Shown here piece by piece: positions 6,286-36,159 of a DNA stretch of 38,548 nt. A model generated the notes under the pieces. That model ran no database searches. It was not told the origin of the DNA and saw nothing but the letters and a program-made list of their open reading frames with translations. Source of the DNA: a virus; IMG/VR virus record IMGVR_UViG_3300046001_001576, positions 1-38,548 of that record; one strand, written 5' to 3'. How positions within the stretch are numbered: the stretch's first letter is position 1; each line of letters opens with the position of its first letter. The position numbers and the translations under genes were made by a program.

Positions 6286-7683
6286 TTAAAAGGCCAAAGG
6301 CTCTAGCTGCGCTTCAAGGCGTGCAAACGATAGGTATGCATCGCTATCGCCCTTGAATCGCTGAATACGCCAGTTGCGCATATGCCCCTGCTGAAACCAT
6401 GCTAAACGCTTACCGGTGTTACCTATGGTGCCTACGCTTATGCTGCGCTCTTGGCTCCAAACCATGCCATCTATGCTGTAGCTGGTGCTGATTCTAGGGT
6501 CTTTGCCTAAAGCAACGCGGCCGGTTAATGCCACCAATTCAATCCGGTTAAAAATAGCGCCATTGCTTTCGTTGTACACAATCATAGTGCCAAACTCCCA
6601 GCGAACCTTAGCGCCATAGTGACTGCTAATAGTGGGGTCTAGGTAGCCTACTGAGTTAGACAAAGGGTCACCGATTAGCCATTTGTCGTATGCCCATACA
6701 AAGTTACGCGCCCGATACTGGCCAAAGCCTACAATGTCGCTCGTTAGCGTAAACCATACCTGAGTTTGGAACACTTGCGAAGATGCTATGTCGTAAACCA
6801 TAGTCCGATCTGGCAAATGCACATAAAGGTATTGGTGTGATTTATCGTTGCGTGATTCTAGCTTTACGCCAGATAGCTGTGCTTCGGTGTAGGTTAAAAG
6901 CAAACCATCTATTTCTTGCGTGCTGATTTTTTGCGCTGTGGCATTTGCACCCAAATAGATGCCAGGTGCTTCATTGCGACCGCTGCCTAAGTAAGCAATA
7001 GACTCGTTGTAAACGCAACATGCAAATGTACCTATGGCACCCTTTTGAATCTGAGCGCCATCGATGCGCTGAAAAGGGAATAAATCACCGCCTACGTTGT
7101 CAAATACCTCAATAGTATGCCGGTTAATGGCATATACCTCATTGCGCAATTTGACCAATGCTATAACTGGGTCAGGGTCAACCTCAGAGCTGCCGTACTT
7201 TAACGGGTTGATCTGTGTTGGGTCATTTAACTCTGTAACAATTAAAAACTCGCCGTCGGTTGTCATGAAATAACCGTCAACCCAGCAAAAATCAATAACA
7301 GTGCCTAAATCTGGGTCTGTCACTTGGGTTAGCGTTCCATTCCAGTAGTACAAACGCCCACCGCTTGCAATGGCTAAACGATCAAATGAATAATCAAATG
7401 TAACCAAGCCAGTGCCGCCAACATCGCCGAGCGTGGTAACTGTGCCATTGCTTGCAACGGTTACCAGCTTAGTTCCCATAACGCGATAACAAACGCCCTG
7501 CCACTCAATACCGCCACGGTCTATACCAGCGCCTGCACCATTGGCTACTAAGCCTTCAGCGGGGCTTAAATAGCCCTTGCTGATACCGCTATCAATGGGC
7601 ACGGGTATTAGATTCACCGGATAGGCAGTCTTAATGTCTGCCGTGCTATCCGTAAAAATTCCGTTAAGTATTTGAATTTGCAT
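6286..7683 (-). CDS. Packaged-DNA stabilisation / tail hub protein (P22 gp10-like)
   Basis: 465 aa, close to the 472 aa of P22 gp10. The beta-propeller-like run of short repeats is clear: GIDRGGIEWQGVCYRVMG (about residues 54-71), TFDYSFDRLAIASGGRLYYW (95-114), DFCWVDGYFMTTDGEFLIV, EVYAINRHTIEVFDNVGG. This is the Phage_stabilise family, which closes the head after packaging and forms the distal tail tube. The ATG at 7683 lies inside the end of the upstream fibre gene, giving a 20-base overlap, so expression is probably coupled. It is one of the firmest assignments in the window. Confidence 0.9.
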   Translation of the reverse strand: MQIQILNGIFTDSTADIKTAYPVNLIPVPIDSGISKGYLSPAEGLVANGAGAGIDRGGIEWQGVCYRVMGTKLVTVASNGTVTTLGDVGGTGLVTFDYSFDRLAIASGGRLYYWNGTLTQVTDPDLGTVIDFCWVDGYFMTTDGEFLIVTELNDPTQINPLKYGSSEVDPDPVIALVKLRNEVYAINRHTIEVFDNVGGDLFPFQRIDGAQIQKGAIGTFACCVYNESIAYLGSGRNEAPGIYLGANATAQKISTQEIDGLLLTYTEAQLSGVKLESRNDKSHQYLYVHLPDRTMVYDIASSQVFQTQVWFTLTSDIVGFGQYRARNFVWAYDKWLIGDPLSNSVGYLDPTISSHYGAKVRWEFGTMIVYNESNGAIFNRIELVALTGRVALGKDPRISTSYSIDGMVWSQERSISVGTIGNTGKRLAWFQQGHMRNWRIQRFKGDSDAYLSFARLEAQLEPLAF

Positions 7684-9661
7684 TTTTTAAGCGTTCAACT
7701 TCAGCCGACAATTCTTGTATAGCTTTAACCAATATTGGAATCAGATTGCTTTCATTGTAATAGAGTTTTTCAGGGTTAGTAATATCAACTATAACCGCCT
7801 CTGGTTCAATGGCTGCAATGTCCTGCGCCTTGAAACCGTACCGCACGCCGCCGTTAGTTTTTTCGCTGCCACGGTCGGTTCTGAACTGATACGCGGTAGG
7901 TTTTAGCTGCTTTACAAAATCCAAACCATGCGGAATAGCTTTAAAGTTTGTCTTATCGCGTGCATCGGATACCACTGTCCACGCTACTTTAATGTAAGCA
8001 TTTGTGACTGTTGAACTCCCCATTACCACATGGTCATTTTGTGCAACTACATTAAATACTGGCGTACTTGTTGGAGTAGAGCCTCTAGTTCCTATACATA
8101 TATTTGCAACACCAGTTGTAAGGTCTTGTAATGCGTTGGAACCAATTGCAGTATTCCTTCCTTCTCCAATTGCTACAGATAAAGCCATGCTGCCAATTGC
8201 TACATTGCTGTTTCCAGTTTTATTTGTTCGTAGTGCATTAGGACCAATTGCAACGTTATAACCTCCTGTTGTATTAGAATTACTTGCAAAATAACCTAAT
8301 GCAGAATTATTAGTCCCAGTTGTATTATTTTGAATACTTCCTGCGCCAATTGCTGTATTGTATGCACCATCTTGATTTGCTTGTAATGAATTATGTCCAA
8401 TACATGAGTTATACCCACCTGTAGTACTTACTTGCATTGATTGCAAGCCAATAGCCACATTGTTTGTGCCGCCCTGTCCCCCTGAAAAAGTACCAATTGC
8501 AACGCTTTTAGTGGTTGCATGTATTTTAACTTTATTACCTGCTTCATTCCAAGCTGCCTTTTCTGTATCGGTTACAAACCGATTACTAGCATCCTGAGTT
8601 ATGACACTTGCGGGATGGGTCGCAGGATGCGCGTAGGCGGTTGCGCCTGCAGCAATGCCGTCAAGTTTAGTACGATCGGCACCAGTTGATAGAGTAGTTG
8701 CAGAGCCCGCATTGCCGGTAATTGTGGTCTGGTCGCCAGTGTTTGTGCCGCTTGCTGTGCCTGTGCCCGTTGCGTAAGTTCCTGCCGGTTGCTTAGCATC
8801 CCACCCTGTTTTCTCAGCATCAGTAACAAATCGGTTACTTGCATCCTGAGCAATAACACTTGCGGGATGGGTTGCTGGGTGAGCGTAGTTGTTTGCGCTT
8901 GCCGCAATGCCATCTAGCTTTGTACGGTCAGCCCCGACTGATAAGGCCGTAGCGGTCGCGGCGTTTAATGAAATATTAACCGGCCAAGTGGAGCCAAAAT
9001 CGGTCGCGTCAACTTGCAGCTTCAATTTCGAGTCAGTGCCCCACCCGAGATAAATTTTATTTGCGCCTTGGTTAGCGCCGCCGCCCTGCTGGACAGGTGT
9101 GAACCCAAGTGCAGCTTGCTTAGCATTCCACGCTGTTTTCTCTGCGTCAGACACGAACCTATTACTTGCATCCTGAGTGATAACACTTGCGGGATGGTTA
9201 GCAGGATGAACATAAGCGTTAGCGCCTGCTGAAATACCGTCTATCTTGGTTTTGTCAGCGTCTGACATAAAGCCCGCCACTGTAGTAGATGCATTAGCGT
9301 GGGTATGCGTGGTAGATGATTTACCATCTAGCATAGATTGCAAACCTGTAACTGTTGCGATGGCTTGCGCGCCTGTGTGGGTGCTACGATCACGCAATTG
9401 CGCGTCGGTTGCGTTTGCAGTTGCTCCGGCTTGTATGCCGTTTAGTTTGGTTTGATCTGCTGCTGATACCGCGCCTGTAGCCCCTGTGTCGCCTTTAAGC
9501 CCCGCGCTAGTCCATTTTGCGCCATCCCACATAAGCGCCTTGCTAATGGTGGTGCTAAAGGCCAATGCGCCCTTATCGCTTGCGGTAAGCGCTGGGCTAG
9601 TTGCACCATCAGCGGCTGCAATAACTGGCAAAGATTTAAAGTTTAATTGCTTGGTTGACAT
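7664..9661 (-). CDS. Tail fibre with YadA-like repeats and S74 intramolecular chaperone domain
   Basis: 665 aa. The N-terminus (MSTKQLNFKSLPVIAAADGA) is a virion-attachment type. Residues about 125-370 hold three near-identical blocks containing HPATHPASVITQDASNRF followed by a [D/T]-EK-x-x-W segment. Residues about 385-540 are YadA-head-like repeats (NVAIG, NTAIG, SALGYFASNSNTTGGYNVAI). The C-terminus is a Peptidase_S74 chaperone: Ser565 in SDARDK is the expected cleavage site, with the Lys of the dyad at 570, then LKPTAYQFR and YGFKAQD. The domain helps the trimer fold and then cuts itself off, so the mature fibre should be about 564 aa. It probably serves in host recognition. It sits upstream of gp10 with other fibre genes. 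Confidence 0.9.
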   Translation of the reverse strand: MSTKQLNFKSLPVIAAADGATSPALTASDKGALAFSTTISKALMWDGAKWTSAGLKGDTGATGAVSAADQTKLNGIQAGATANATDAQLRDRSTHTGAQAIATVTGLQSMLDGKSSTTHTHANASTTVAGFMSDADKTKIDGISAGANAYVHPANHPASVITQDASNRFVSDAEKTAWNAKQAALGFTPVQQGGGANQGANKIYLGWGTDSKLKLQVDATDFGSTWPVNISLNAATATALSVGADRTKLDGIAASANNYAHPATHPASVIAQDASNRFVTDAEKTGWDAKQPAGTYATGTGTASGTNTGDQTTITGNAGSATTLSTGADRTKLDGIAAGATAYAHPATHPASVITQDASNRFVTDTEKAAWNEAGNKVKIHATTKSVAIGTFSGGQGGTNNVAIGLQSMQVSTTGGYNSCIGHNSLQANQDGAYNTAIGAGSIQNNTTGTNNSALGYFASNSNTTGGYNVAIGPNALRTNKTGNSNVAIGSMALSVAIGEGRNTAIGSNALQDLTTGVANICIGTRGSTPTSTPVFNVVAQNDHVVMGSSTVTNAYIKVAWTVVSDARDKTNFKAIPHGLDFVKQLKPTAYQFRTDRGSEKTNGGVRYGFKAQDIAAIEPEAVIVDITNPEKLYYNESNLIPILVKAIQELSAEVERLKNANSNT
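8556..9260. repeat. Imperfect tandem repeat in tail-fibre gene (three copies)
   Basis: Three copies, at about 8556-8696, 8801-8945 and 9130-9255, share blocks such as acttgcgggatgg with 'cctgagtnataacac' just before it and a 'tttnctcngcntcngnnac' block about 50 bases earlier on the plus strand. They encode the repeated HPA[N/T]HPASVI-QDASNRF-EK units. Copies differ at many silent sites. Such repeats permit length change by recombination and may collapse in short-read assembly. Confidence 0.8.
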
Positions 9662-9669
9662 GTAAGACC

Positions 9670-10590
9670 TTAATAATCAGTTTCAATGTATAGGCTCATT
9701 AACGCAAAGCCAATAGTGCTAGATGTACCGCCGACTGAATAATAACCGCGTGGGGCTAGCATTGCAGTTTCAGCAGGTAAATTTGTATTTGCTGTGTGAT
9801 TAAACACGAATCCGGTAGTTAAGTTTGTAACTTCAAAATGCACCTCAGTTTTACCCGGTGCGCAGAACATAGCTAATTCATACACTTCAGTGTTATCTGC
9901 TACGCTTTTTACAATACCTGTATTTATCTTTGTTACCGCGCCTGTGCCGGTTTTGTGCATAATCTGATATGTAGTATCAGTATTATCACATCCTACGCCT
10001 AGCACATTGGCGATAGTTGACGGGTTTACGTCTGTATTATTTGCTACGGATGATGTAAAACCACAAAAACCTCGACGTGTGGCATTAGCTGCTGCAATTG
10101 TAGCAGTGCCAAATGTGCCCGGGCCAAATCTGCATACAAAATGAAAACCGCCTAACTTGCTATTTGCTACGCCTCTAAAATATTGTGGATGCAAAGTATA
10201 AAAACCACCTACCGCCGTAGCCGCTGCAACTGTTGCTGCATAGATTACATGTTTCATTGCCATGTGATGGTTTGTAGGCGCTACATTTAATGTTTGCGCT
10301 GAACCGGTCATACTTAGCATAATGCCACTGGTTGAAACTGTATTAGTGTTGCCAATTGGCCGTGCAAAGGCAATGCTGTTACGTGCAAACGATGCTTGCA
10401 AACTAGAATCTAAACCTGATGGCCCGATAAAAGCAGGCATCATACGCCCGCCTACCTTGCGCCCGAATACTTTAACTTTATCCGCTGCGGGTGCCGTTGG
10501 TGTAGTGTTTGCAAGCTCCAATGGGTCTACAGCGCCACCACTACCAGCCGGTAGTAACCCGACTATAAAACCATTAACATCTATACACAT
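9670..10590 (-). CDS. Tail fibre / virion-associated beta protein, unknown fine role
   Basis: 306 aa. The N-terminus includes VDPLELANTTPTAPAADKVK and VFGRKVGGRMMPAFIGPSGLD, typical of phage proteins that attach to the particle. The remainder is Thr/Ala/Gly-rich beta structure with FHFVCRFGPGTFG near residues 149-161, resembling lectin-like or concanavalin-like tail proteins. It starts with ATG at 10590 after AAGGG spaced five bases, just downstream of a strong hairpin (10606-10631). It is one of five successive fibre-type genes between the adaptor and gp10. It probably contributes to adsorption, but the receptor is unknown. Confidence 0.65.
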   Translation of the reverse strand: MCIDVNGFIVGLLPAGSGGAVDPLELANTTPTAPAADKVKVFGRKVGGRMMPAFIGPSGLDSSLQASFARNSIAFARPIGNTNTVSTSGIMLSMTGSAQTLNVAPTNHHMAMKHVIYAATVAAATAVGGFYTLHPQYFRGVANSKLGGFHFVCRFGPGTFGTATIAAANATRRGFCGFTSSVANNTDVNPSTIANVLGVGCDNTDTTYQIMHKTGTGAVTKINTGIVKSVADNTEVYELAMFCAPGKTEVHFEVTNLTTGFVFNHTANTNLPAETAMLAPRGYYSVGGTSSTIGFALMSLYIETDY

Positions 10591-10605
10591 GGCAACCCTT
10601 AAAAG

Positions 10606-10631
10606 ATGCCCCCCAGCATTGTGGAGGGCAT
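10606..10631 (-). terminator. Hairpin between fibre genes (attenuator or RNA-end stabiliser)
   Basis: Read on the minus strand, arms ATGCCCTCCA and TGGGGGGCAT form a 10-bp stem (one G-U) with a six-base loop, followed by CTTTTAAGGG. The T-run is short, so full termination is doubtful. It sits between the stop of the 325-aa gene and the ribosome site of the 306-aa gene, where it could reduce read-through or protect the upstream mRNA 3' end. Confidence 0.6.
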
Positions 10632-10643
10632 ATGCTTTACATT

Positions 10644-11621
10644 TTAGCCAGTTACAACTACACGAATAGAAGCTGCGGCTGGGGCAACTGCGAAGCCAAG
10701 AGTAACTTGGTTCACGCTGTTACGCACAACATCACATTCTACGCTTTCGCCAGTTGCGACAAAGTAGCATTGCACAGTTACGTCAAGGTTGTTAAAACCA
10801 TGATTAACAACACTGTTAACAGCGCCTCCGACAGTCGCAGCGAACTTGCGAGCCACAACACCTGTATCAATAGCAAGGGTATTGCCACCAATGCTAATGC
10901 CTGTACCAGCGCTGTAGGTTGTACCTGCGCCGATCTGGGCAAAGTCAAGGCCGGTGGTGCCAACGGTAATCCCGCCATCTGTGATAAGACGCCATTGGCT
11001 ATCTGCCATAGTCACGCCTTCTTCAACCATCACGGTCAAACCGGCTGTAACTTCGGCATTGGAGTTTGCATCTTCAGTGCGAACCCATGCGCCCGAGGAT
11101 GCAGCATACAAACCGTTGTTTTCTACTGCGGCTTGGTTTTTAACCAATACGCGGTCTCCGTTAGCCAAGCTAATGCCATCTACGGTTTGCAGGCCGGACA
11201 ATGTAATGTCAGCGGTAGTGGCTGCACGTACTGATTGCTTCCAATCGGTACCGTTAACGGCTGCATCTACATATCCTTTAGTAGCTGCATCCTGTGCGCT
11301 TACTGGGTCAGCTACGCCGGTCAACCGTTGGCCGTTAGCGCTTACAGCGGCTGTAGGGGCTGCGAACTGATCGAGGCGGGTAGCTTGCACTACGCTAGCC
11401 AAATCGCTGATAGTGGCTGCTAACTGGGTGCCTGAATGGTTAGCGCGCGCGGTAACGTCCACATTAGCCGAACCATCACGAACCATTAGCTTGCCGGTGG
11501 TGGTGTTATACCAAATCTGGCCGGCAACTGGTGAACTGGGGTCAGAGGCTAAGTTTTGAACCTTAGCGTTCTGAATTTCATTTTGCGAAAAGTCATAAGA
11601 GACTAGGATTTTCTTGGTCAT
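10644..11621 (-). CDS. Tail fibre protein
   Basis: 325 aa. Residues about 28-52 (PSSPVAGQIWYNTTTGKLMV) are the common phage fibre motif that links to the particle. GYVDAAVNGTDWKQSVRAAT (about 116-135) followed by NGDRVLVKNQ and NNGLYAAS-GAW-RTEDA is a repeat type widespread in tail fibres. The last 65 residues (VNSVVNHGFNNLDVTVQCYF) form a C-terminal beta domain seen in phage fibre tips. It begins 15 bases downstream of the 208-aa gene in the leftward operon and ends 13 bases from a strong hairpin. Likely receptor binding; specificity is unknown. Confidence 0.75.
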   Translation of the reverse strand: MTKKILVSYDFSQNEIQNAKVQNLASDPSSPVAGQIWYNTTTGKLMVRDGSANVDVTARANHSGTQLAATISDLASVVQATRLDQFAAPTAAVSANGQRLTGVADPVSAQDAATKGYVDAAVNGTDWKQSVRAATTADITLSGLQTVDGISLANGDRVLVKNQAAVENNGLYAASSGAWVRTEDANSNAEVTAGLTVMVEEGVTMADSQWRLITDGGITVGTTGLDFAQIGAGTTYSAGTGISIGGNTLAIDTGVVARKFAATVGGAVNSVVNHGFNNLDVTVQCYFVATGESVECDVVRNSVNQVTLGFAVAPAAASIRVVVTG

Positions 11622-19271: not shown

Positions 19272-19429
19272 AAAGTTACCACTAAAAAACCAATAAAACC
19301 AAAACAGATGATAAACATCATGAAAAGCATAATTTCATAGAACCATCCGCTAGTGTCTTTTTGCTTAATTAAGCTTGATGCCCAAGCATCAATATATTCG
19401 TTTTGCGCTGCGTTTTCAATTGTTGTCAT
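19268..19429 (-). CDS. Small single-span membrane protein, 53 aa
   Basis: It starts at ATG 19429, overlapping the end of the 119-aa gene (ATGA), and ends with TGA overlapping the terL GTG. Residues 1-27 are polar (MTTIENAAQNEYIDAWASSL). Residues about 30-52 are strongly hydrophobic (EIMLFMMFIICFGFIGFLVV), one clear membrane helix. Overlaps on both sides support real translation. Such proteins between terminase genes have no general function; an inner-membrane or accessory holin role is possible but unproven. Confidence 0.7.
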   Translation of the reverse strand: MTTIENAAQNEYIDAWASSLIKQKDTSGWFYEIMLFMMFIICFGFIGFLVVTL

Positions 19430-19785
19430 GTGTTTTTCTCCTTTAACTTTGCTTCAATAGCGCGGGCAATCCGAAGGAAATACCCGTTGCCCAAAACAGG
19501 CAAATCAATCAGTGCATCTCCAATTTCTACGTCCGTCAATCCTACCCATTCCAGGTCTGGTTGTGGCGTCGCCGTCTCCAGTTCCTCTATGCGCTTTGCC
19601 ATGCGCTGCATCTCTTCGACTAGCACGGCCTGCGTAGCCCAATCAGGATTGAATTGGTTTAGTTGCTCAAGTGCTTGTCGCAGAGCAGCGAGTGCATCGC
19701 GGGTAAGCATTGTGTCGTCTGTCCCGTTCGCACAAAGTTGTAGCGCCTCCAGCGCCTGCCGCGCTGCTTGTTCAAGTGTTGTCAT
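19426..19785 (-). CDS. Conserved phage hypothetical protein, 119 aa
   Basis: The N-terminus (MTTLEQAARQALEALQLCAN) and the later LRQALEQLNQF form Leu/Ala-rich helices, then a coiled coil (VEEMQRMAKRIEELETA). The C-terminal EWVGLTDVEIGDALIDLPVL is a short motif (WVGLTD-E/V-I) found near the end of many phage hypothetical proteins. There is no membrane segment or catalytic site. Coupled by overlap to the 53-aa membrane protein and, through it, to terL. Function unknown. Confidence 0.65.
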   Translation of the reverse strand: MTTLEQAARQALEALQLCANGTDDTMLTRDALAALRQALEQLNQFNPDWATQAVLVEEMQRMAKRIEELETATPQPDLEWVGLTDVEIGDALIDLPVLGNGYFLRIARAIEAKLKEKNT

Positions 19786-32478: not shown

Positions 32479-32645
32479 ACTACAAACCAGCTCTTGAATA
32501 TGCAGGTTTTATTGCTTTATCAGACCTAATTACACGGTTGCAAGAACATGCAAAAACTACATCAAACCTGAACCTTGCGTGTGACATAGCAATGGCAGCA
32601 AGTTTGATTGAAAATCTTTTAAAGGGTGCTGATGACTTCAAATAA
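32475..32645 (+). CDS. Small hypothetical protein, 56 aa
   Basis: It overlaps the membrane-peptide gene (ATGA) and the ThyX start. MNYKPALEYAGFIALSDLIT then LQEHAKTTSNLNLACDIAMA, ASLIENLLKG is an amphipathic helical protein. No family recognised. The upstream ribosome site is weak, so its translation likely depends on coupling. Confidence 0.5.
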   Translation: MNYKPALEYAGFIALSDLITRLQEHAKTTSNLNLACDIAMAASLIENLLKGADDFK

Positions 32646-33288
32646 CGTCAAACTAATATGGGCTACTCCCGACGCAGATGCAATGATTGCAGAGATTGCG
32701 CGGGTATCTAATCCAGACAATCAGAAGAATCCCAACATCGATGGGTTGCTAAAATACATGATGCGGGAAGGCCACGTATCGCCTTTCGAGATGGCTAACG
32801 CTTGCGTCGAAATTACGACAACCCGCGATATTGGCCGACAGATTCTGCGCCACAAGTCATTTAATTTTCAAGAGTTTAGCCAAAGGTATGCAAACGTTGA
32901 TAGTTTGCCCGATGCGCAGTTACGTGAGTGTCGATTGCAGGATACTAAGAACCGTCAAAATAGTATTGCAACTGATGACTATGATCTAACTCAAACATGG
33001 GAACTAGTCCAACAAACCATATTGAAAGAAGCGCATACCGCTTACCAATGGGCATTAGATCAAGGTATTGCTAAAGAACAGGCTAGGGCGTTACTGCCCG
33101 AAGGATTGACCACTTCCCGTATGTATATGAACGGCAATATGCGTAGCTGGATTCACTATCTACAAAGCAGACTTCATGAATCGACCCAAAAAGAGCATCG
33201 GTATATTGCTGTTGAAGTGCTAGCAATCTTGCGTGAGGTTGCACCTGTAACAATATCTGCATTTTTTCCTACGCAACTAAGCCGGTAA
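32632..33288 (+). CDS. thyX: FAD-dependent thymidylate synthase ThyX
   Basis: 218 aa from ATG 32632 with AAGGG spaced five bases (a GTG at 32626 is an alternative). It converts dUMP to dTMP using methylene-tetrahydrofolate, NADPH and FAD. The ThyX signature is at residues 73-83, RHKSFNFQEFS, equal to RHR-x7-S but with Lys in place of the third-position Arg. HVSPFEMANACVEI (48-61) and LPEGLTTSRMYMNGNMRSWI supply flavin and substrate contacts. Length is normal. It is the last gene of the rightward operon, and its last 20 bases overlap the end of the endolysin gene on the other strand. Confidence 0.92.
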   Translation: MTSNNVKLIWATPDADAMIAEIARVSNPDNQKNPNIDGLLKYMMREGHVSPFEMANACVEITTTRDIGRQILRHKSFNFQEFSQRYANVDSLPDAQLRECRLQDTKNRQNSIATDDYDLTQTWELVQQTILKEAHTAYQWALDQGIAKEQARALLPEGLTTSRMYMNGNMRSWIHYLQSRLHESTQKEHRYIAVEVLAILREVAPVTISAFFPTQLSR

Positions 33289-33733
33289 GATAGATAGTCT
33301 TACCATCTTTCTTAATAGCGGTTAAAGCCTGATTTTTTAGGCTTTTAGGGTCATACGATACATGTACCCAGCCGCTATGCGGATTTCCCATAATGTAAAA
33401 TTCTAAAATTACCTGCGTAAACTTTAGATTGGCTTGTATCCATTCTGCTAAATCATAATTAGAAATACCTGGCACTTCAATATCCGCTGCAAAGCCTTGC
33501 ATGTGATCTGATGTTTTAGATCCGCCAGCAAACTTATTAAGCGCTTCTCCACGGTAGCCACTGCTTATCTTTACCGGTTTTTCGTAGTGCTCGCGTATTG
33601 GTTGCAATACGTTAATAACCAATTCTCGCAGATTTTGCAATATTCCCTGTGTTGGTGTATTGTCTAAATTGTTGCGTAAAGCAATATCGCTTTTTATCAA
33701 TTCAAGCAATGTAAAGTTTTCGCTTAACTTCAT
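33269..33733 (-). CDS. Endolysin, M15-type D-Ala-D-Ala peptidase-like
   Basis: 154 aa. SSGYRGEALNKFAGGSKTSD (58-77 region) leads to the zinc motif SDHMQGFAADI with His77 and Asp84, and WVHVSYD supplies His124. This is the Peptidase_M15 / VanY family that cuts peptidoglycan peptide stems. There is no signal peptide, so it needs the holin for export. Its ATG overlaps the holin stop by four bases. The 3' end overlaps thyX tail to tail with no terminator. Confidence 0.9.
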   Translation of the reverse strand: MKLSENFTLLELIKSDIALRNNLDNTPTQGILQNLRELVINVLQPIREHYEKPVKISSGYRGEALNKFAGGSKTSDHMQGFAADIEVPGISNYDLAEWIQANLKFTQVILEFYIMGNPHSGWVHVSYDPKSLKNQALTAIKKDGKTIYLTGLVA

Positions 33734-34140
33734 TTTTTAGTTCTCATATCTGCCAGTTTTTCCACTGTACGACCGCCAAAATAGGCCAAAAATATAATCT
33801 GCCCCCACTGGCCTAGCAACTGCACATAAGATTCTTGCGCGTTGTAACCATATGCCGACATAAATGTAAATAGAAAATACGCTACAAAGATAGCTATAAG
33901 AGCCATAGGGCGTATATTTTTAGATAGCCAACTATCACTAGCCATGTCAGCCTTCCATCGGTCTGATACGGCTGTATGCTCAATCTCAAATAGCTTGGTA
34001 TCGTTAGCCATTTTTGCTAACTCGCCATCCTGAGCCATTACAGCAAGCTCCATTTGCGCTTTAGCTTTAGCTTCAGGGTCAGGGATTAACTTATCAATAA
34101 GTTTTCCACCGACGGTTAACAGTGCATCTAAACCAAACAT
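33730..34140 (-). CDS. Holin (GTA_holin_3TM family)
   Basis: 136 aa. The N-terminal amphipathic part (LLTVGGKLIDKLIPDPEAKA) and the DSWLSKNIRPMALIAIFVAY motif at about residues 68-87 are typical of the 3TM holins of gene transfer agents and many phages. Two strong membrane helices lie at about 76-97 and 106-124 (GQWGQIIFLAYFGGRTV). It makes holes for the M15 endolysin encoded directly downstream. Confidence 0.88.
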   Translation of the reverse strand: MFGLDALLTVGGKLIDKLIPDPEAKAKAQMELAVMAQDGELAKMANDTKLFEIEHTAVSDRWKADMASDSWLSKNIRPMALIAIFVAYFLFTFMSAYGYNAQESYVQLLGQWGQIIFLAYFGGRTVEKLADMRTKK

Positions 34141-34150
34141 ATAAAACCTT

Positions 34151-34912
34151 TCAAGGCGAAGCCTTTAAATTGTAAAACCTTAAAGTGTCTAATACCTCGC
34201 CGCGCAATTGCAACCGGCGCAAAGCATCTACCATGCGAGCGTATAAATCCTTGTATTTGCTTTTTTTGCTAACACCAAAACCATAGGTAATCTGTTTAAT
34301 GTCTCCGGCAACTCTTGGTCCGATAATTGAATGCTTTTTAAGCAATGCTAAACCAACATCTTTATTAACCACAACTGCGCCATTAGCACCGTATTTGCCA
34401 GTGATTAAATGCTGGTAACTGGCAACAATGCTAGGTTCAATTACTAAATTAAAGCCATCAAACCCCATAGCAATACGTTTGTCTGCTACTTCTTTGGCGA
34501 CAATGCTGGTGCCACTTGGCCCATATGCGCCAACGGTCATACCATCAAGCGTAGACACTCCGCCATATTGCCACGGGTTACGCGATGTAACAAAAAAGCT
34601 ATAGCTGGTGTTTACAATAGATGGTGATAGATAAAACAATTCTGCACGCTCTGGCACTTCTAGCAAAATAGAAAACACTACATCGGCTTCACCATCAACA
34701 GCCTGTTTATAAGCATCTTTCCAAGGCAATAAACTAAATTCACAATTTAGCTTTGCTTCTTTGCATATCGATTTTAATATGGTGTACATCGGCCCTTGTA
34801 TCACGCCATTATGCAAAGTTTGAAAAGGTGGAAAATCCTCAGTAACAATTTTTACAGTTTGCCCATATGCAAACCCAACGGATAGAAAATAAGCAATAAC
34901 GTATTTAATCAT
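34151..34912 (-). CDS. Periplasmic solute-binding protein (SBP_bac_3-like), exported
   Basis: 253 aa from ATG 34912, which has GAGGTG spaced about eight bases; the longer frame to 34951 has no such site. Residues 1-17 are a Sec signal peptide (MIKYVIAYFLSVGFAYG) with predicted cleavage before QTV. The mature part fits family-3 binding proteins: VKIVTEDFPPFQ (20-31), GPMYTILKSICKEAKLNCEF, ADVVFSILLEVPERAELFYL, then GAYGPSGTSIV and a C-terminal helix region YKDLYARMVDALRRLQLRGE. No permease or ATPase gene is present. It lies between the holin and a membrane protein. Possible roles are nutrient capture, interference with chemoreceptors or sensor kinases, or superinfection exclusion; none is proven. 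Confidence 0.82.
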   Translation of the reverse strand: MIKYVIAYFLSVGFAYGQTVKIVTEDFPPFQTLHNGVIQGPMYTILKSICKEAKLNCEFSLLPWKDAYKQAVDGEADVVFSILLEVPERAELFYLSPSIVNTSYSFFVTSRNPWQYGGVSTLDGMTVGAYGPSGTSIVAKEVADKRIAMGFDGFNLVIEPSIVASYQHLITGKYGANGAVVVNKDVGLALLKKHSIIGPRVAGDIKQITYGFGVSKKSKYKDLYARMVDALRRLQLRGEVLDTLRFYNLKASP

Positions 34913-35348
34913 TCTCAGGCACCTCAAAACATAAATCAGGTAGCTTTGCACTATGCTGCGCCAAAGACAGCGTAGGCCGCCAATAAACCACTGTATTGCT
35001 GCACCATGCGCCCGTCATGTGTGGTGGCAGTATAATAGACCGCAATACGACATAATCCCCTACTTGGTTAACTATTACGCCGCCTTCAACTGCTACGCTT
35101 TGGCCGCCGTTGTATTGCCGGTGCAAAGTACGATAGATGGTTAGCTCAGATATATCTGAACCAACAAAACCCCGGCTTTCAACCAATATATTGTTACCAT
35201 CTTTTTTAGTTACCATAGTAACGCTATCAGATGTAGTAAATGGTGTTGATGATGTAGTTGTAATGTAAACAATAACGCCTAAAAACAGCGTGCATACAAA
35301 ACTAAACCATCCTCCAAGCCTAATAATCCAATGGGCTTGTAAACTCAT
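34905..35348 (-). CDS. Membrane-anchored protein of envelope cassette, 147 aa
   Basis: Residues about 9-32 form a membrane segment (RLGGWFSFVCTLFLGVIVYI), and the rest should lie in the periplasm: beta-rich with LVESRGFVGSDISELTIYRT, then GGQSVAVEGGVIVNQVGDYV and two Cys (WCSNTVVYW, LPDLCFEV) able to form a disulfide. The end (LCFEVPEND) overlaps the start of the solute-binding gene by eight bases, so the two are translationally linked and may act together. No family recognised. Confidence 0.6.
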   Translation of the reverse strand: MSLQAHWIIRLGGWFSFVCTLFLGVIVYITTTSSTPFTTSDSVTMVTKKDGNNILVESRGFVGSDISELTIYRTLHRQYNGGQSVAVEGGVIVNQVGDYVVLRSIILPPHMTGAWCSNTVVYWRPTLSLAQHSAKLPDLCFEVPEND

Positions 35349-35749
35349 TTTTTAACCTCGGTTATAGCTGGCGCTGGTGTTGGTGTAGTAATACTAGCAG
35401 CTTGCACCCATTCTTTAAACTTAGCCTGACTACCCAGTGCAAACAATGCAGCAATAAAAACAACAATTGCTGTTAATCCTTTTTTCATAATGTCATCACG
35501 AAATGTGCGCCAAAACTTTTTACGTTCATTTGCTAATTCTTCGCGTTTATTTAACATTACATGTACGTCATGGTGTTTTTTAATATTGCCATCGGGTGTT
35601 GCTTTAGTCATGGTGTCATGTAAGGCATCTACTTTTTCGGTTAATGTGTCCATTTTATTAGCCTGTTCAGTTAATGCCGTTCTAACCCATTGACTAGCTG
35701 CGCGGTTTTCTCCACGCCTTTCAAATTCATGTGGTAATTCTTCGCTCAT
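35345..35749 (-). CDS. Coiled-coil membrane protein, 134 aa
   Basis: The N-terminus is charged (MSEELPHEFERRGENRAASQ). Residues about 22-55 are a coiled coil (LTEQANKMDTLTEKVDALHD). Residues about 85-105 form a basic patch and one membrane helix (GLTAIVVFIAALFALG). The tail is Thr/Pro/Ala-rich (ITTPTPAPAITEV). The layout (cytoplasmic coiled coil, single TM, short outside tail) could be a holin-like or spanin-like accessory, but no Rz/Rz1 pair or lipobox is seen. Overlaps both neighbours by four bases. Confidence 0.55.
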   Translation of the reverse strand: MSEELPHEFERRGENRAASQWVRTALTEQANKMDTLTEKVDALHDTMTKATPDGNIKKHHDVHVMLNKREELANERKKFWRTFRDDIMKKGLTAIVVFIAALFALGSQAKFKEWVQAASITTPTPAPAITEVKK

Positions 35750-36159
35750 TTTTGAAACAATCCTACAATAAGTTTAGACAATATAACAATGCGGTTAATG
35801 CGATTGCCATAAACATGAGTAGTCTTTGTAAAAAAATCAAATTTAGACGTTGCAGAAAATGTGTAATTGTCAAACCATAAATCTGCAATAGATGCAACAC
35901 AATGATTAATTGATTCTGCACCATTTGATTTTACAAAATGCAATTCATAACGTCCAGTAAAAACCAAATGCCAAATAAAAGTAGCAATGCTTTTATTAGC
36001 CATCAACCAAAAAACGGTTAACGCAAAATCTTCGCAATCGCCATAATAAAATCCATTTGCTTTAGGTTGCATTACAAACCAAGCATCACGCAATAACGTA
36101 ATGTCTGGTTCATATAAAAACTTTTCTGATACTGTGTCAATTGCATCTTCTAAAATCAT
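35746..36159 (-). CDS. Transglutaminase-like cysteine peptidase (BTLCP-like)
   Basis: 137 aa. YYGDCEDFALTVFWLM at residues 38-53 holds the candidate nucleophile Cys42 in the DCEDxA signature of transglutaminase-like proteinases. INHCVASIADLWFDNY at 85-99 offers His86 and Asp97 to complete a Cys-His-Asp triad. No signal peptide is visible. These folds cut or cross-link peptides. In a lysis and envelope cassette it may process a virion or host envelope protein. Coupled to its neighbours by four-base overlaps. Confidence 0.65.
   Translation of the reverse strand: MILEDAIDTVSEKFLYEPDITLLRDAWFVMQPKANGFYYGDCEDFALTVFWLMANKSIATFIWHLVFTGRYELHFVKSNGAESINHCVASIADLWFDNYTFSATSKFDFFTKTTHVYGNRINRIVILSKLIVGLFQK

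Follow-up and report, generated by a model that had tools for sequence, protein, structure and literature searches.

The gene at positions 34151–34912 (complementary strand) of the window, that is the whole 38,548-nucleotide stretch of viral DNA analysed, encodes a predicted secreted family-3 solute-binding protein and closes a conserved module of three genes, in which a 134-residue protein is followed by a 147-residue protein and then by the binding protein. We tentatively propose, at somewhat under even confidence, that the binding protein is the soluble receptor of a late-expressed envelope module, docking on phage membrane proteins and tuning late envelope events. The window, a 38.5-kb viral record, contains P22-like portal, scaffold, coat and head-closure genes. 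It also encodes a 665-residue protein (complement(7664..9661)) with patchwise matches to at least six PHROG families of tail spike, fibre and virion structural proteins, apparently a mosaic adhesin. The features around the binding-protein gene are as follows:

35345–35749, complementary strand: 134-residue protein, one transmembrane segment near residues 86–111 and a short tail (hydropathy, conservation)
34905–35348, complementary strand: 147-residue partner, N-terminal transmembrane helix (residues 3–31) and predicted Ig-like β-sandwich ectodomain (AlphaFold2, conservation)
34913–34925, complementary strand: Shine-Dalgarno region, GAGGTG-N7-ATG, within the upstream 147-residue gene (sequence comparison)
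34151–34912, complementary strand: secreted family-3 solute-binding protein, 253 residues plus stop, predicted signal peptide approximately at residues 1–17
33730–34140, complementary strand: holin of the GTA_holin_3TM type, three transmembrane segments, next gene downstream and outside the module proper (PF11351, E 3.3e-9; phrog_3427, E 2.5e-25)
33269–33733, complementary strand: M15-type endolysin, after the holin (PF08291, E 3.4e-19; phrog_894, E 3e-44)

The 253-residue product matches the Pfam profile SBP_bac_3 (PF00497) with an E-value of 4.4e-13 and 49.6 bits against a cut-off of 26.4, which confirms the full-length family-3 binding protein recognised in the initial annotation. Its N-terminus, MIKYVIAYFLSVGFAYG-QTV, has a short hydrophobic core, and cleavage sites of the AxA/AxG-Q type (AYGQ, VQAQ, VAAQ and VFAQ) are found in its homologues. 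A Sec signal peptide is thus predicted, as already claimed, from hydropathy and inspection of the conservation of the site. The same annotation had noted a good ribosome site, an eight-base overlap with the upstream gene and a position between the holin and a membrane-anchored protein, and all three hold: GAGGTG stands 7 nt ahead of the ATG, its GAGGT core being retained in most relatives according to sequence comparison, the overlap covers positions 34905–34912, and the gene has the holin downstream and the 147-residue transmembrane protein upstream. The GC content of the gene is 0.40, its neighbours range from 0.385 to 0.43, and the window mean is slightly higher at 0.447.

The three-gene module itself was overlooked in that earlier reading. 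In every one of the 12 relatives readable on the upstream side (locus L007 ends at the start of the binding-protein gene), the gene immediately before the binding protein is that of the 147-residue protein, and the first gene of the module is conserved in the same 12, coding for 127–147 residues with a single transmembrane segment near the end; the overlaps between the module genes measure a few bases. Relatives of the 147-residue protein span 145–148 residues with an N-terminal transmembrane helix and a β-sandwich domain; two cysteines, Cys116 and Cys140, are invariant, and a 59%-identical relative occurs in another uncultured phage. No Pfam match was obtained for it in the profile search. 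Its AlphaFold2 model is of moderate confidence (mean pLDDT 81.5) and matches an Ig-like domain of GH2 in the PDB (Z 10.8), from which no function was drawn, since the Ig-like arrangement is common. A spanin role for this protein was considered and is unsupported; it lacks a lipobox, and a simple lipobox scan of the window gave a single, implausible match. The 134-residue gene overlaps the 147-residue gene by 4 nt; the charged N-terminal part of its product is probably a coiled coil, and the product matches phrog_937 'hemolysin' (XhlA-like) weakly (E 0.007). Across 13 loci, distances of the binding protein correlate with those of the 147-residue protein with r 0.91, and across the nine divergent ones with r 0.71, which may reflect plain linkage; the correlation with the 134-residue gene is 0.40. 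The gene complement(35746..36159) encodes a 137-residue protein with a GDCEDFA...NHCVA...DLWFDN pattern like that of transglutaminase-like cysteine proteases, with no Pfam match at 0.01.

Relatives of the binding protein with 65–98% identity were found on 12 other IMG/VR contigs and on one contig of an Oxalobacteraceae MAG (L024; 71% identity). The latter contig, 63 kb long and linked to its host by binning only, also has phage tail-type genes, a GH108 gene, a holin and an integrase. A phylogeny against bacterial binding proteins, as had been suggested, compared 14 viral-type rows with 47 bacterial ones and two reference proteins. All viral-type rows, also that of the MAG, cluster in a single group (support 100/99), which a long branch of 2.8 changes per column sets far apart from the bacterial relatives; a long-branch warning at L062 leaves the exact sister group unsure. 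The nearest bacterial relatives, from Pseudomonas and Stutzerimonas, share about 30% identity and form a separate clade. No relative of either the binding protein or the 147-residue protein was found by tblastn in 50,697 cultured-phage records; GlnBP as query matches 80 of these; many of the matched records are short, lack annotation or are very large and may, in our judgement, be bacterial DNA. Plasmid matches are distant only (23–38%). The 147-residue family occurs in one of 399 sampled genomes of the host order, namely the MAG bearing the phage contig, and no further carriers were found in the sampled host family and order.

A chimeric join to host DNA at the gene edges had been named as a possible refutation; it is excluded for practical purposes because the identical gene order recurs in many separately assembled contigs. 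Host contamination is rejected on the same ground and also for L024, the row of which falls inside the viral clade and the contig of which has an integrase and tail genes. Values of dN/dS are 0.04–0.05 in close pairs and 0.09–0.14 in the other pairs with measurable dS, many pairs being saturated; they indicate strong purifying selection, and decay of the gene is rejected. Recurrence in viral contigs, the single viral clade and the purifying selection together bear out the phage-encoded status. Some module-bearing phages are probably temperate, because tyrosine integrases are present in three carriers (L012:10774–11925, L238:977–2035 and G003:C1:2918–3340); none was found in the window record.

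Structure prediction with pocket comparison, another check advised at the outset, yielded a confident AlphaFold2 model (mean pLDDT 93.5) with the predicted two-lobed periplasmic-binding fold of family 3. The top PDB match is 3h7m, a histidine-kinase sensor domain (Z 24.0, rmsd 2.8 over 224 residues), followed by LAO (Z 22.9) and numerous transport proteins; the two kinds lie so close that the ranking alone does not tell sensing from transport. For the pocket alignment, the residue numbering of the reference sequences was verified at the pocket positions. The LAO positions Y14, F52, S69, S70, S72, R77, T121 and D161 correspond to F, W, S, I, L, R, G and N in every viral row, and to F, W, T, x, x, R, G and N in most solitary bacterial relatives. 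Ligand-contact residues are retained in all relatives, and their loss, the other outcome that would have spoken against the annotation, did not occur. The arginine that binds the ligand carboxylate (R77 of LAO) is R89, invariant in all phage rows, which suggests that the ligand bears a carboxylate. The aspartate that binds the α-amino group (D161 of LAO) is replaced by asparagine (N183) in all phage rows and most bacterial relatives, a departure from the importer pattern that would argue against canonical α-amino-acid recognition, unless E25 (D11 of LAO, D10 of GlnBP) substitutes. Given the confident predicted fold, the invariant arginine and the asparagine shared with bacterial relatives, the protein is probably a working receptor.

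The absence of transporter partners stated in the initial annotation was corroborated. ABC permeases (PF00528) were found in none of seven records, that is the window record and six related viral records, and no PF00005 ATPase exceeded the cut-off in the same set; the one sub-cut-off PF00005 match of the window falls in the region of a Sak4-like ATPase. In the preferred reading, the binding protein is not a component of a phage-encoded ABC importer. It could still be the product of an auxiliary metabolic gene that scavenges a nutrient, docks on a host ABC importer, as has been proposed for cyanophage PstS, and feeds late virion production, which we consider rather unlikely. Amino acids are the main ligands of family-3 proteins (PMC9602780), phage-encoded binding proteins for nutrient acquisition exist, as exemplified by pstS (PMC6359870), and both the pocket arginine and the purifying selection agree with such a role. 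Against it stand the lack of transporter genes, the exchange of the amino-group aspartate for asparagine and the strict association with two non-transporter membrane proteins; furthermore, the nearest bacterial relatives are encoded by genes that stand alone, and in two of five loci, as read from ORF starts only, an ABC operon lies nearby without being continuous with them. The original label of an auxiliary metabolic or host-signalling gene therefore stands in so far as a selected phage gene with a retained pocket and without transporter is concerned; it is too loose for a three-gene module beside lysis genes. Since this conserved module contains two phage-specific membrane proteins and adjoins the lysis genes, a non-transport receptor with phage partners is tentatively favoured over a metabolic gene.

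Recurrence at the same place in related phages, which the initial annotation wished to see checked, proved to be a matter of the module, whose order is constant in the 12 readable relatives, while the downstream genes differ. In the window, its close relatives, L007 and L010 the module is followed by a holin and an M15 endolysin, with inserted genes in L010, one of them Dam-like, that separate the binding protein from the two. A GH108 muramidase follows in L008, L012 and L024, and likewise in L009 after an esterase. In L013 a gene without assignment precedes a phrog_1544 gene, and this family also matches the L024 holin, a weak lysis assignment; L011 ends ahead of the downstream region. On the readable downstream sides, the module thus accompanies lysis genes even where the lysis enzymes are non-homologous (M15 with a GTA-type holin, or GH108). 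Because the module is inherited, these cases represent at least two lysis contexts and not a dozen independent events. Several additional genes were observed in these neighbourhoods. The Dam-type methyltransferase gene between binding protein and holin is L010:7832–8269, and esterase/lipase-like genes (DUF676 or PHROG esterase) adjoin the module at L011:6183–7022, L024:6224–7030 and L009:8756–9691, which suggests that genes active on the envelope are clustered here. A ThyX-type thymidylate synthase gene (32641–33285; PF02511, E 2e-41) adjoins the lysis genes of the window on the opposite strand and is absent from the related locus L005; in L003 two adjacent genes (10267–10629 and 10641–11009) both resemble complement(19426..19785) of the window, a duplicated small gene beside thyX.

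The module is not a general property of this holin lineage, since none of 80 holin-relative loci carries it (about 15 are incomplete upstream); seven of 80 endolysin-relative loci do, every one an already known contig. In module-free holin relatives the slot is occupied by other small membrane-anchored genes, and is thus accessory. Many different proteins of this kind precede the holin in loci L064–L143, for example a 203-residue family starting MSDEKPADILSKVLSYVDSPFKLFALILMAV, and the slot is a possible reservoir of lysis or exclusion genes. Small membrane or periplasmic phage proteins from accessory slots often serve exclusion, and with the varied occupants of this slot they lend some credit to superinfection exclusion or receptor masking, in which the module would change the periplasmic face of the inner membrane and block DNA ejection by a second phage, the binding protein perhaps obstructing a host permease used for DNA entry. 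We regard this as unlikely: blocking needs no conserved ligand pocket, the probable late position is atypical for exclusion genes, and no exclusion family was matched. Very improbable, finally, is an acquired bacterial gene carried as neutral or generic cargo, its neutrality being refuted by dN/dS of 0.04–0.14 and the invariant pocket, or a binding-protein fold turned enzyme, e.g. of the cyclohexadienyl dehydratase kind, for which speaks that the fold also supports enzymes (AncCDT-5, Z 21.4).

Under the preferred reading as a non-transport receptor, the binding protein would be exported by Sec and cleaved, and in the periplasm would close around a small ligand with a carboxylate group. Loaded or empty, it would then dock on the Ig-like ectodomain of the 147-residue inner-membrane protein, and the latter, together with the 134-residue coiled-coil/transmembrane protein, would relay its state to the cell envelope or the lysis apparatus and might, for instance, make the holin trigger later or earlier. 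What was observed is a viral gene under selection, a constant module order, the pocket arginine, proximity to lysis genes and no encoded transporter. Support comes from the kept order, the overlapping frames, the two lysis contexts, the distance correlation, a sensor domain as top PDB match, the low dN/dS (0.04–0.14), the lack of a permease and of an ATPase above the cut-off, and the occurrence of the 147-residue family in one of 399 sampled genomes. On the other hand, proximity to lysis genes may reflect no more than a late-gene slot, in which esterases and further accessory genes are found too; the Dam-type gene (L010) and the esterase (L009) intervene before the lysis genes, the L013 assignment is weak and the 147-residue model is moderate. 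A more specific version is unlikely; in it the secreted protein would sense the level of a periplasmic small molecule and, via a dedicated phage membrane receptor, adjust lysis or some other late decision at the envelope accordingly. Phage lysis timing responds to superinfection and membrane energy; if that version were true, metabolites sensed by means of a solute-binding protein would add a new input to it. If the protein instead feeds a host importer, the known range of phage auxiliary metabolic genes widens, and either way a compact, testable gene set with two uncharacterised membrane-protein families is at hand. Stimulation of membrane receptors by solute-binding proteins is described as widespread, non-transport receptors being established in bacteria (PMC9602780), and NspS is a periplasmic binding protein that acts on the membrane receptor MbaA without transport. 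Moreover, the phage T4 protein RI, secreted by a cleavable signal peptide, senses periplasmic signals and controls lysis (PMC8385771). These precedents make the receptor idea reasonable, not proven.

Phage-encoded binding proteins as such are already known (pstS, and Bug-type proteins in uncultured phages). The open-licence literature searched yielded no precedent for a family-3 protein that forms a constant module with membrane proteins of the phage next to lysis genes, nor for any phage binding protein in a lysis cassette. The solitary PF00497 proteins of Pseudomonas and Stutzerimonas share with the phage protein the family, the pocket F-W-(S/T)-x-x-R-G-N, the cysteine pair and the signal peptide; however, they are chromosomal, lack the 134- and 147-residue partners in the loci inspected and form their separate clade. 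LAO, HisJ and GlnBP, which serve ABC importers, share the fold (Z 21–23) and the carboxylate arginine, whereas in the phage protein Asp161 is replaced by Asn and S70 and S72 by I and L, and a phage permease or ATPase is missing. Cyanophage PstS is likewise a periplasmic binding protein encoded by a phage gene (PMC6359870), but of another family and ligand class; it is interpreted as a nutrient gene in hosts limited for P, and no tie to the present module has been reported. The Bug/TTT-type binding proteins of uncultured Caudovirales phages have a related fold (BFVD, E 8e-8, TMq 0.56) and belong to another family, with 8–14% identity. In pairs of the NspS-MbaA type, as proposed here, a soluble binding protein of the periplasm exerts its effect on a membrane protein that is not a permease; MbaA is a c-di-GMP enzyme, whereas the 147-residue phage partner consists of a transmembrane helix and an Ig-like domain only. 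The T4 antiholin RI is small and binds the holin T, and no sequence or fold relationship to the binding protein is claimed, but in placement and topology the module protein would resemble this lysis regulator with its cleavable signal peptide (PMC8385771).
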